From the IMG/VR virus record IMGVR_UViG_3300025325_000135, positions 1-24,010 of that record: DNA of 24,010 nt. One strand, 5' to 3'. Source of the stretch: a virus. The notes beneath the pieces were generated by a model. It was not told the DNA's origin, did no database searches, and worked only from the letters and a program-made list of their open reading frames with translations. Of the stretch, positions 5,504-24,010 are shown piece by piece. The position numbers and the translations under genes were made by a program. Numbering within the stretch: position 1 is the first letter of the stretch; each line of letters starts with the position of its first letter.

Positions 5504-5955
5504 TGCGCCTCATGTATCGCGGCGATTACCTCCCCCCAGTCGAGCGGAAGGCGCTCCACAACGCGGTCCGCGCGGCCGCCGGCAACCGGTGTATCCGGTG
5601 CGGCCACCCAAACGAGACCGCGACCCAGCGGGCCCCGTGCAGCGACCGATGCACGCACCCGCGTAACGACAAGCAGCGGGTCCTCACGGTTCACCACCTC
5701 GACGGCGACAAGGCGAACAATCGTTGGTGGAACCTCCTCGCGCTCTGCCAGGTCTGTCACCTGCAGATCCAAGGCAAGGTGGTTCCCGAGCGGCCCTACC
5801 TCTGGACGCACGCGCCGTGGATGGTCCCCTACGTCTGCGGATTCTACGCCTCGTACTACGGCCAGCTGGAGATCAGTCGAGCCGACGCTGAGGCCGATCC
5901 CATGCGATGGCTGTTGCTGGGGCAACCGTGGCATGCCACGGAGGCGGCCCGATGA
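5503..5955 (+). CDS. HNH endonuclease-like protein
   Basis: A 150-aa protein with a clear HNH layout: C30-x2-C33, the catalytic segment LTVHHLDGDK with H64-H65, N77 in WWNLLALC, and C82-x2-C85-H86. The four cysteines would hold a structural zinc and H65 is the likely catalytic base. The tail (95-150) is aromatic-rich and not recognised. It may be a free-standing HNH nuclease used in DNA metabolism, or a homing-type element; no intron boundary is visible around it, and its TGATG and ATGA junctions show that it is integrated in the operon. Confidence 0.82.
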   Translation: MRLMYRGDYLPPVERKALHNAVRAAAGNRCIRCGHPNETATQRAPCSDRCTHPRNDKQRVLTVHHLDGDKANNRWWNLLALCQVCHLQIQGKVVPERPYLWTHAPWMVPYVCGFYASYYGQLEISRADAEADPMRWLLLGQPWHATEAAR

Positions 5956-6200
5956 CCAAGCGCGCTATGCTGTTGGCAGACGGTGACGCCCAAGCGCGCG
6001 GCGGCCGCATGATGACCTTCGAGCTGGGCCCGGGGCTCAAGGTCGACCTGCCCAAGCTGATCGATAGCCGCCTCCTACTCCAGGCGAACTCAGGCGGGGG
6101 CAAGAGCTGGGCGCTCCGCCGGCTTCTGGAGCAGACCCACGGCAAGGTGCAGCAGCTCGTGATCGACCCCGAGGGCGAGTTCGCGACCCCGGTGCAGTGA
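5952..6200 (+). pseudogene. N-terminal fragment of a P-loop ATPase (HerA/DUF87-like)
   Basis: An 82-aa reading frame whose last 45 residues are the classic start of a phage or bacterial HerA/DUF87-like ATPase: IDSRLLLQANSGGGKSWALRRLLEQTHGKVQQLVIDPEGEF. Walker A is SGGGKS at 47-52. Family members as I know them are several hundred residues long and continue with Walker B and arginine-finger regions. Here the frame ends six residues after DPEGEF, and no remaining ATPase sequence is found in the next 200 nt in any frame. Without Walker B the product could not be a normal ATPase. The start is the ATG at 5952 (ATGA overlap). The most likely explanation is a deletion that removed the rest of the gene; a functional short nucleotide-binding peptide is possible but less likely. 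Confidence 0.78.
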
Positions 6201-15569: not shown

Positions 15570-17105
15570 ATGGCGGACGCTGGCGGCACGATTCTCGGCT
15601 ACGTCAAGGGCTCGGTCGCCCTCGGCAACACGTTCGGCACCCAGATCGCGACCCCCGCGATCAAACGGGTCCGGATCTCCACGGACACCCTGGCGCGCAA
15701 TATCCAAACCGCCGAGAGCCCCGAGCTCGTCAGCGGCTACGACGTCGAGGACATCCGGCCGGTGGCGGAGGATGTCGGCGGGCAGGTGACCGCGCCCCTG
15801 CTCTGGGGGAACTTTGACGACTGGATCGAGGCGCTCCTCTTCTCCACCTGGCAGCTCACCCCGCAGCGGTTCAATGCCGCGGCGGACCAGGAGATCACCG
15901 ACGTGGCGGCGGCCACGGGGGTCATCACGATCCTCGCCGCGGCGGCGGGGAATCCCAATCGCGCCGGCACGTTCGCGATCGGCCACCTGGTGCGGTCGAG
16001 CGCGTTCACCAATGCCGGCAACAACTTCCTGAAACGGGCATCGGCGGCCAGCTCGACCTCCGTCACCGTCTCCACGGCAGGCCTGGTGAACGAAGCCGCG
16101 CCGCCCGCGGCCGCGCGGCTCAAGGCCGTCGGCTTTGAGGGGGCCGCGGCCGACATCACCGCCACGGCCGGTGGGACGAACTCCATCGGCGCGACCGCGC
16201 TCAACCTCACCACGCTCGGGCTCGCCCGCGGGATGTGGCTCAAAGTCGGGGGCACCGCCGCCGGCAACAAGTTCGCCACCGCGGCGAACAATGGCTGGGT
16301 GCGCATCTCGGTGTCGGCCACGACTCCGATCACGGCCACCACGATCATCCTGGACCGCGTCCCGGCCGGGTGGGCCACGGACGCCGGCACGGGCAAGACG
16401 ATCCAGGTCTGGGTGCCGGATTGGATCACCAACGCGGCCGACGCGCTGGTCTGGTTCGATCTCGAGCGGCAACTCCCGCAGCTGGCGACCGACGAGTACC
16501 ACTACCTGATCTCCTGCGTCCCGACCTCGCTCGTCCTCGCGATCCAGGCCGGTCAACTCAAGGACGCTCAGATGGCGTTCATTGGCGCGTCCGGCTCGGA
16601 AGTGACTGCGCGGGTGGCGGGCGCCACCGATCCGACGGCGGATTCACTCGGGACGATCCCTCGGGTCGGGAGCGCCTTCGACGCCTCGAACAACGTCGCC
16701 CAGATCGCCGAGGGCGGTTCCCTCCTGACAGATGTCGTCACCGGGCTCACCTGGACCATTGCCAACGGGGTCCAGGGCCTCCGGGTGGTTGGGCGTCGTG
16801 GCTTCGGTCGGATCACCCGCCAGCGCTTCCGGCCGACGGTGGCGCTGCAGGCCTACTACGACAGCAAGGCCACGCTCGACAAGCTCGGGAACGATACCGA
16901 GACGTCGCTCCACTCGATCTTCACGGATCCCAACGGGACGCGCGCCTTCATCGTGGACTATCCGTCGGCCAAGCTCGCCAGCGGCGCCGTGCAGGGGATC
17001 CAGGCGGATGGCCAGCTGCAGGTGCCCTATGGGTTCAGCGCGCGCCGCCAGACCAATCTCTCCGCCAGCGTGATGTTGTGCCGTCTAGAGGAGTACGCCG
17101 TCTGA
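15570..17105 (+). CDS. Major tail tube protein with internal insertion
   Basis: A 511-aa tail tube subunit, large compared with simple tube proteins of about 150-350 aa. The N-terminal part (GSVALGNTFGTQIATPAIKRVRISTDTLARNIQTAES) and the C-terminal part (DALVWFDLERQLPQLATDEYHYLISC onward to QTNLSASVMLCRLEEYAV) look like the tube fold. Between about 100 and 285 are two related beta modules, one around FTNAGNNFLKRASAASSTSVTV (near 146) and one around GNKFATAANNGWVRISVSATT (near 232), perhaps exposed on the tail surface. GAGGAG at 15557-15562 gives a good ribosome binding site for the ATG at 15570. Confidence 0.88.
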   Translation: MADAGGTILGYVKGSVALGNTFGTQIATPAIKRVRISTDTLARNIQTAESPELVSGYDVEDIRPVAEDVGGQVTAPLLWGNFDDWIEALLFSTWQLTPQRFNAAADQEITDVAAATGVITILAAAAGNPNRAGTFAIGHLVRSSAFTNAGNNFLKRASAASSTSVTVSTAGLVNEAAPPAAARLKAVGFEGAAADITATAGGTNSIGATALNLTTLGLARGMWLKVGGTAAGNKFATAANNGWVRISVSATTPITATTIILDRVPAGWATDAGTGKTIQVWVPDWITNAADALVWFDLERQLPQLATDEYHYLISCVPTSLVLAIQAGQLKDAQMAFIGASGSEVTARVAGATDPTADSLGTIPRVGSAFDASNNVAQIAEGGSLLTDVVTGLTWTIANGVQGLRVVGRRGFGRITRQRFRPTVALQAYYDSKATLDKLGNDTETSLHSIFTDPNGTRAFIVDYPSAKLASGAVQGIQADGQLQVPYGFSARRQTNLSASVMLCRLEEYAV

Positions 17106-17257: not shown

Positions 17258-17731
17258 GTGGCGAAGAACCTGTACGAGCTCTACCAACCCGACATCGAGG
17301 CCGCGGCGCGCGGAGTGCCGTTTACCACGTCGCGTGGGATCACCCTCTGGCTGCTTCCTGATTGGGCGGCCGAGTGGGACCGGTGCGCCGTCGACCGCGC
17401 CATCCTGGTCAAGGACTACCTCGCGCTCGATTGGTGGGAGATGCCGTCGGACCTCCGCGACCGCGTGACCGTCCGCGAGTTCGAGACGGCTGTCGTGGCG
17501 TGGGATGCCACCGACGCCGAGGGGACACCGATGCCCTGCACGGTGGACGCCAAGCGGCAGGTGGCGCGCGACATCCGGCCGCTACTGCTCGAGGTCATGG
17601 CCGAAGTGCGGCGGCGACGCGAGGAGCGCCGGGGGGCAATCGTAGCCCTGGGAAAAGACTTCGCGCCGTCCTCCGCGCCGAGCTCGAACACCCGAGCGGA
17701 CGAGAGCGCGCCGCCACCCACCGTGCCCTGA
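17258..17731 (+). CDS. Tail assembly chaperone, short form (lambda gpG-like)
   Basis: A 157-aa protein placed between tail tube and tape measure genes, where siphoviruses encode the tail assembly chaperone. It contains ITLWLLPDWAAEWDRCAVDRAILVKDYLALDWWEMPSDLRDRVTVREFETAVVAWD and a basic helix (EVMAEVRRRREERRG). The end, DFAPSSAPSSNTRADESAPPPTVP, is disordered and is made only when no frameshift occurs. It starts with GTG at 17258 after AGGAGG at 17248-17253. The protein would coat the tape measure and recruit tail tube subunits, and is not expected in the finished virion. Sequence similarity to known G proteins is weak; the call rests on position plus the frameshift. Confidence 0.82.
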   Translation: MAKNLYELYQPDIEAAARGVPFTTSRGITLWLLPDWAAEWDRCAVDRAILVKDYLALDWWEMPSDLRDRVTVREFETAVVAWDATDAEGTPMPCTVDAKRQVARDIRPLLLEVMAEVRRRREERRGAIVALGKDFAPSSAPSSNTRADESAPPPTVP

Positions 17732-18015
17732 TCCGGGCGGGACAGCCACTGCCGGCGGCGCTGACGCTTCGGGTGACCCCGGCCGTGGAGGTGTACTGGC
17801 GGGCCTATCGGGTGCTCGATCAGCAGCGGGGCTTTCACCAGGGCGGGGCCAACCCGCTGGGGTACGAGGCGATCCGGCGGTACGCGGTGGACCACGGCCT
17901 GCCCGTCGACGACGTGGTGACGGTGCTGCAGATGATGGATGGTGAGTACTTCGCGATCCAGCACGAGCGACTGACGGCGATGCGAGCCCAACAGGAGCGG
18001 ACGAAGACACGATGA
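17258..18015 (+). CDS. Tail assembly chaperone, -1 frameshifted long form (gpGT-like)
   Basis: A second reading frame, one base back, overlaps the end of the short chaperone and runs to 18015. A -1 shift at 17650-17656 joins residues 1-133 of the short form to 119 more residues (RLRAVLRAELEHPSGRERAA, later VEVYWRAYRVLDQQRGFHQGG and DDVVTVLQMMDGEYFAIQHERL), giving 252 aa. The added T-like domain is expected to contact tail tube protein. This frame has no good start codon of its own near the overlap, and its stop overlaps the tape measure start as ATGA. That arrangement is the conserved siphovirus pattern described for lambda G/GT. Confidence 0.85.
17650..17656 (+). promoter_or_regulatory. Programmed -1 ribosomal frameshift site G GGA AAA
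   Basis: The heptamer GGGAAAA lies in phase as G GGA AAA in the short chaperone frame and fits the X XXY YYZ rule, so both tRNAs can re-pair after slipping back one base. A GCTCG/CGAGC hairpin (17682-17697) lies 25 nt downstream, with CGCGC/GCGCG (17674-17678 with 17706-17710) possibly enclosing it. The distance is longer than the usual 5-9 nt, so the stimulator is uncertain. Confidence 0.85.
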
Positions 18016-22732: not shown

Positions 22733-24010
22733 ATGCCCAGCCTCGCATATCTAAAACTGTCCGATCGTCTGGCCTGTCAAGCCGGTCCTGCCGTTATTTA
22801 CGGGGTGCTGCACCCCGAGGAGCTGCTCGAGGCCAGTGACCTGATGGCGATCGAGGAGCAGGAGTCGCTGAGTTTCGCCTACGCCCGGGTGGATCGCCAG
22901 GGCGAGCCCCGGAGCATCACCGCCCAGATGCGCGCCGGCCGGGTTATCACCGAGATGTGGGAGGACGACTCGTTCGACGAGTGGCGCCTGGGCGGCCTCG
23001 TCCAGGGTCGGGCGCTTCGCGGCCGTGTCAGCGTGCAAGGCGTCCCCTTGAGCCTCGATTTGGCCGAGCGGCCTGGGGCCGCGAGCGGGAAGGGCTGGGT
23101 GTCGGAGCTCAGCAACGGCGAGCGGATCTTCGACTACGAGATCGCGGAACGCACCGCCTCGAGCATCCTCTCCAGCTACGTGATCCCGAACCTCGCCTCC
23201 TGGATCACGCTGGGCACGGTGGACCCGACACTCGTCATCCCTGCGATCAGCGTCAACCGCTTAACGCCCTGGCAACTGGCGCTCGCGGTCCGCGACGCCC
23301 TGCGGGAAATGGACGTGCCGTGTGAGCTCCGGCTCCGTCGGAATGGCACGACCGACTACAAGCTGGATCTGGTCACGCAGATCGGCGCCAGTGCCGCGAC
23401 GCCGATTTTTCATCCACACTGTAGCCTTCGGTCGCTGGTGGTGCGGACCGACCCCACGCTCCAGGCGACGCGCCTGCTGGTCCGCGGTGGCACGGCGCCG
23501 GACAGCTTCCCCGGGATCCTCGGGCGAGCCCGCTGGAAAGGGGGCGCGCCAAGCGGCACCGTGATCGCACTCAGCGATCGGAACGGTGGGAGCTCGCCCA
23601 TCGCCTTCGCAGATCAGTGGGTCGGGGCCTATCTCCTCCGGGTCAAAACCGGCCGGACGTTTGCGATCACGGCGGCGGATGCCGTGGCGGGCAGTGTCAC
23701 GCTCGGTGGCGGGGTGAGTACGATCGCCGCGGACGAAGACTTCGAGTTCCGGCTCACTGAGCCGCTCACCAATACGGCGCGTCGGATCGGCGCGGATACC
23801 AACCCGAAGACTCATGCCTTTGTGCTGACCGTCGTCGCGAGCACGGTCTTCACCTTGGTCGAGCGATGGGTGACCACCGATGCGGTCGGCGTCGACGATC
23901 AGCACATGGACTGGTATCTCCGTCGAGCGAGCGCGGTGGCCACGCCGACCTTTAGCAACATGACGTCGGGTGGGGTTCTGACGGTCTCCAGCGTCGCGGG
24001 GATTCAGGTG
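22733..24010 (+). CDS. Tail-tip / Tal-like protein, incomplete at right edge
   Basis: An open frame starts at ATG 22733 and runs without a stop through the last codon of the window, giving at least 426 residues (MPSLAYLKLSDRLACQAGPA...). Early parts (VIYGVLHPEELLEASDLMAIEEQESLSFAYARVD, RVITEMWEDDSFDEWRLGGLVQGR) fit baseplate-hub or tail-tip proteins that follow Dit, and IIPAISVN-like strands plus TPWQLALAVRDALREMDVPCELRLRRNG are typical of the hub region of such tail-tip proteins. Later repeats of beta strands (TFAITAADAVAGSVTLGGGVSTIAADEDFEFRLTEPL) suggest added domains. It would form the tail tip, possibly with peptidoglycan-cleaving activity further downstream. No clear ribosome binding site precedes it. 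Confidence 0.78.
   Translation, partial: MPSLAYLKLSDRLACQAGPAVIYGVLHPEELLEASDLMAIEEQESLSFAYARVDRQGEPRSITAQMRAGRVITEMWEDDSFDEWRLGGLVQGRALRGRVSVQGVPLSLDLAERPGAASGKGWVSELSNGERIFDYEIAERTASSILSSYVIPNLASWITLGTVDPTLVIPAISVNRLTPWQLALAVRDALREMDVPCELRLRRNGTTDYKLDLVTQIGASAATPIFHPHCSLRSLVVRTDPTLQATRLLVRGGTAPDSFPGILGRARWKGGAPSGTVIALSDRNGGSSPIAFADQWVGAYLLRVKTGRTFAITAADAVAGSVTLGGGVSTIAADEDFEFRLTEPLTNTARRIGADTNPKTHAFVLTVVASTVFTLVERWVTTDAVGVDDQHMDWYLRRASAVATPTFSNMTSGGVLTVSSVAGIQV

Follow-up and report, generated by a model that had tools for sequence, protein, structure and literature searches.

The stretch of DNA analysed here (the window) comprises 24,010 nt of IMG/VR virus record IMGVR_UViG_3300025325_000135, from an uncultivated tailed phage. 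In its tail region the tail tube gene, G, T and the tape measure gene follow one another in intact order, and upstream of the G and T reading frames there is, in addition, a tail terminator gene (PF13554). The features of the locus are listed in Table 1. Since family searches with the long ORF that follows T gave no strong match, its assignment as the tape measure gene is by the properties given in the table. The tape measure ATG at 18012 overlaps the stop codon of the -1 frame (18013-18015); this frame is open to 18015 and ends on the tape measure start, as a sequence-only reading of the same DNA had stated.

Two further observations concern other parts of the window. A perfect (CTG)9 repeat, corresponding to nine cysteines, is found at positions 670-697 within an N6/N4 DNA methylase gene (359-1195, PF01555); it is unusual for a phage enzyme and possibly variable in length. 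A 97 aa ORF at 5907-6200 looks truncated; its match to the HerA central domain (DUF87) is confined to the initial part of that domain.

Table 1. Features of the chaperone locus, with positions in the window
Feature	Position	Strand	Basis
Tail tube protein	15570..17105	+	PF18906 Phage_tube_2, 3.4e-20; phrog_290, 2.3e-38; upstream of G
Frame-0 product, putative G-type tail assembly chaperone, 157 aa	17258..17731	+	GTG start, TGA stop (17729-17731); ORF, codon usage
G run CGGGGGG, candidate stimulator, weak	17630..17636	+	13 nt spacing 5' of the heptamer; duplex energy -9.1 kcal/mol with anti-SD
Slippery heptamer G GGA AAA	17650..17656	+	X XXY YYZ in exact register; homologues have in-phase heptamers at this junction
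Predicted T-type extension after -1 slip, 119 aa plus stop	17656..18015	+	PF23812, phrog_3817, codon usage, Foldseek
Dual-frame overlap, 24 codons plus stop; frame-0 tail DFAPSSAPSSNTRADESAPPPTVP	17657..17731	+	Translation, near-equal codon scores
Tape measure ORF, 858 aa	18012..20588	+	Length, sequence character, synteny

The heptamer and the change of coding frame

The GTG start of the G gene is preceded by the SD-like sequence GAGGAGG. The codons CTG GGA AAA GAC occupy positions 17648-17659 in frame 0, and the G GGA AAA that the sequence-only reading had placed in the zero frame of this gene is present in exact phase. GGGAAAA occurs nowhere else on the + strand of the window. With a strict heptamer defined as an in-phase X XXY YYZ in which Y is A or T, only one is found in 14 window genes, which together hold 5,048 in-frame codons. 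Among trials in which the codons of the gene were shuffled, 4.7% had a strict heptamer anywhere in the usable stretch and 1.2% had one at 15 codons or fewer from the junction; synonymous resampling of the gene gave a heptamer in 1.8%. A GGGAAAT at 23304-23310, in phase and with a -1 frame open for 86 codons, lies inside an ORF of doubtful status (22957-23325) and was set aside as probably a chance occurrence.

The -1 frame is open from 17362, an in-frame TGA being present upstream at 17359. A codon-usage score trained on the remaining window genes places the change of coding frame around the heptamer. Over the 133 codons up to the heptamer, frame 0 scores +97 bits and frame -1 scores -84, and past the overlap the relation is reversed, with +75 bits for frame -1 and -92 for frame 0. 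Within the 24-codon overlap itself the two frames score about equally (+4.4 for frame 0 and +3.9 for frame -1). The third frame is strongly negative throughout. The computed junction of a -1 slip reads ...IVALGK/RLRAVL... (the slash marks the junction), identical to the LGK-RLR junction predicted earlier, and gives a long form of 252 aa compared with the short form of 157 aa. A tandem slip predicts ...IVALGK/RLRAVLRAELEHPSG..., of 252 aa.

Folding of the sequence downstream of the heptamer gave a z-score of about -1.1 to -1.4 at best, which is not significant and agrees with the earlier remark that a stimulatory structure is not obvious. The downstream folds of homologues mostly show no consistent structure, with z-scores of about -3 in two of them (L110 and L113). 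Upstream, the position of the CGGGGGG run is not conserved, and EBPR siphovirus 3 and the IMG/VR relative L118 have a TGGAGGA 6 nt upstream of their heptamers. Upstream runs able to pair with the anti-SD are suggestive only as stimulators. The less common G GGA AAA site, in a 68% GC genome and with no downstream structure, might be tuned by the upstream anti-SD-pairing G run in combination with the rare GGA and AAA codons, but we hold this to be unlikely.

The two products and their homologues

The -1 product matches the Pfam family PF23812, Phage_TAC_18, over residues 27-101 (33.1 bits, E 6.3e-8; the curated cut-off is 27 bits) as well as phrog_3817, tail chaperonin (E 4.1e-11). By sequence it is thus a recognised tail assembly chaperone domain. 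In a Foldseek search, a model of the T part (pLDDT 74) was similar to joined pre-tape-measure chaperones in their C-terminal part, e.g., those of Caulobacter phage CcrColossus and Acinetobacter phage Loki. The same model gave no useful match in the PDB, and no solved structure was found in a sequence-profile search. The T protein had zero matches among plasmids, and two scans of bacterial genomes, with the T proteins of the window and of the IMG/VR relative L061, revealed no relative.

The frame-0 protein is diverged in sequence, in that a Pfam search gave no match and phrog_313 (tail assembly chaperone, G part) matches it at E 0.21 only, which is weak on its own. The same family matches at E up to 0.1 for seven of the nine aligned G proteins. 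When the window protein was compared with the eight other G proteins by hhalign, an E of 2.1e-5 and a probability of 77% were obtained, and the profile alignment centres on the segment W...G.PMPCT. A search of the phage collection with this protein gave zero matches, and in IMG/VR only a near-identical contig was recovered. For the frame-0 protein, the model obtained with AlphaFold (pLDDT 46) was discarded as too poor.

Homologues were collected with the T protein alone, without use of the heptamer. With a permissive limit, this search gave 73 phage records, most of them from Septimatrevirus and its relatives, and ten annotated records were read in detail (L026, L027 and L108-L115). All ten have a partner G frame and an in-phase heptamer at the junction. 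The heptamer lies at or near the same protein position and differs in sequence: A AAA AAC is found in Septimatrevirus and Xanthomonas phages, G GGA AAC in Bixiavirus and Microcystis phage Mwe-JY26, and G GGA AAG in EBPR siphovirus 3. Five distinct IMG/VR relatives with the same gene order also carry slip heptamers, T TTT TTC in one (L028) and A AAA AAA or A AAA AAG in the others (L091, L061, L118 and L119). PF23812 is matched by the -1 part in each of the nine aligned members. The window protein in its joined form can be aligned with the joined protein of Kakheti25 in one stretch over residues 76-232 (E 1e-6 among 16 proteins), straight through the junction at 133/134. The sequence-only reading had also foreseen that gene callers would miss the long form or place a false start, and this is so in nine of the ten records, which annotate T as a separate gene with a TTG, GTG or ATG start. 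Only the Kakheti25 record annotates a projected frameshift.

It should be noted that a second, heptamer-guided scan of capsid relatives is biased, as a heptamer was required, and the main evidence is drawn from elsewhere. Some of its matches (L038, L058, L081 and others) look like chance. One match of the T-protein scan, in L004, lies outside the chaperone region of that contig and is probably also due to chance; the contig does have a separate G/T-like pair, the heptamer of which is A AAA AAG.

Several capsid relatives depart from the arrangement of the window. Two with 64-68% capsid identity to the window (L030, 7115-7854, and L034, 11863-12815) have a chaperone pair without a PF23812 match, in which a -1 overlap with T TTT TTA or T TTT TTC is found just before the tape measure. 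Because the type of pair differs and yet the -1 overlap and slip sites are present, this suggests that the chaperone pair has been exchanged among capsid relatives with the mechanism kept. In a third relative (L033, 6580-7214; 64% capsid identity) the chaperone-like pair is of another kind: its overlap contains no in-phase X XXY YYZ, and GTG and ATG starts are present in its second frame; thus the second product may be made in another way. Among distant homologues, a stand-alone Phage_TAC_18 gene with its own ATG is found in L122 (2459-2824), L123 (2402-2761), L124 (2393-2761) and L125 (2402-2764), directly after the tape measure gene, an unusual location for a tail assembly chaperone. In the three of these where the next gene was read (L122, L123 and L125), it encodes a protein with several CxxC motifs. 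These exceptions, together with L033, show that a T-like domain can be encoded alone, but not in the gene order of the window.

Proposed mechanism and alternatives

The family of the T domain, the alignment of G with known upstream chaperones, the gene order and the heptamers of the homologues all support the G/GT-type chaperone pair proposed in the sequence-only reading. It is highly probable that the window encodes a G/GT tail-assembly-chaperone pair of a long-tailed phage, in which a -1 slip at G GGA AAA gives a 252 aa fusion next to the short protein of 157 aa. Observed directly are the reading frames, the presence and rarity of the heptamer, the switch in coding, the family of the T domain and the conservation of the arrangement. 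We infer from them the slip event and its rate, the ratio of the products and the roles of both. Most ribosomes would translate from 17258 as far as the frame-0 stop and produce the short chaperone. A minority would slip back by one base at the heptamer, with the P-site codon GGA re-pairing to GGG and the A-site codon AAA to AAA, and would continue in the -1 frame to 18015. If lambda is taken as the model, the part shared by both products would coat the tape measure, and the T domain present only in the fusion would recruit the tail tube protein.

It is very improbable that the -1 frame is instead an independent gene, with a start codon of its own that is used by re-initiation or coupling past the frame-0 stop. 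The starts given by gene callers to the homologous second frame are in its favour, as are the distant T-domain genes with an ATG of their own, although these lie after the tape measure; in every homologue examined that has a T domain in the same gene order, the second frame is without its own start. In the window, the -1 frame has no ATG, GTG or TTG from 17501 to 17772, and the Phage_TAC_18 match begins at 17728. A start at 17773 would lose about 15 residues of this match, and one at 17500 or earlier would add at least 50 residues with a negative coding score. Thus the -1 frame has no start that covers the whole domain unless more than 50 non-coding-looking residues are added. Moreover, the segment that links heptamer and domain can be aligned with homologues, and a separate gene leaves the unique heptamer unexplained.

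An assembly or sequencing indel, which would hide one open frame or two unrelated frames, could be suspected since the junction lies within a G/A run, a common place for such errors. However, a second contig covers 13782-18067 (4,286 bases) with one mismatch and no gaps, which makes an indel at the heptamer unlikely; the same -1 arrangement is present in many isolate phages, and across the overlap frame 0 and frame -1 both have positive codon scores. Taken together, we give this explanation hardly any credence. Nor does it seem credible that transcriptional rather than ribosomal slippage changes the frame: the G3A4 tract permits either in principle, but transcriptional slippage usually needs longer single-base runs, A4 being short, and the X XXY YYZ phase is kept in homologues with different bases.

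Comparison with known systems

The G/GT pair of lambda uses the slip heptamer G GGA AAG. This sequence is rated highly shift-prone in E. coli, and in lambda a low-level -1 slip joins G and T, the two products being present at about 30:1; both G and GT bind the tape measure, and the T part provides the binding to the tail tube protein (PMC5009743). The window shares with lambda the order tail tube - G - T - tape measure, a -1 slip site near the 3' end of G and a GGGAAA-type heptamer. It differs in that its heptamer ends in A, whereas that of lambda ends in G, and in that frame 0 extends for 24 codons beyond the heptamer. Family searches with the window proteins gave no match to lambda G or T.

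Among homologous pairs, gp18/gp19 of Pseudomonas phage vB_Pae-Kakheti25 (Septimatrevirus) has the same -1 direction, a homologous joined protein and a junction within one codon of that of the window. However, its heptamer is A AAA AAC with a stop immediately after, and its T is separated from the tape measure by an HK97 gp10-like gene. In EBPR siphovirus 3 (gp12/gp13) and Microcystis phage Mwe-JY26 the homologous junction has GGGAAAG and GGGAAAC, respectively, with the tape measure right after T, and EBPR siphovirus 3 also displays a frame-0 tail, of 21 codons. The identity of their T parts to that of the window is only 24-29%, and in both phages the two frames are annotated as separate genes.

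With the window the comparative series becomes AAAAAAC, GGGAAAC, GGGAAAG, GGGAAAA and TTTTTTC, in which the heptamer varies and its position and frame are constant. The annotation is also corrected: otherwise the long chaperone would be overlooked or a false start assigned to it, as happened in most related records examined. The understanding of phage tail assembly is unchanged, and the example is real but ordinary. Given what is published on lambda G/GT, on the AAAAAAC adjoining the G stop in Acinetobacter phage Loki, a relative of Kakheti25 (PMC5313236), and on frameshift joins of such kind, which are often missed in annotation according to PRFect (PMC10885494), the window fits the established lambda G/GT kind, and what is new is its sequence and the heptamer G GGA AAA.
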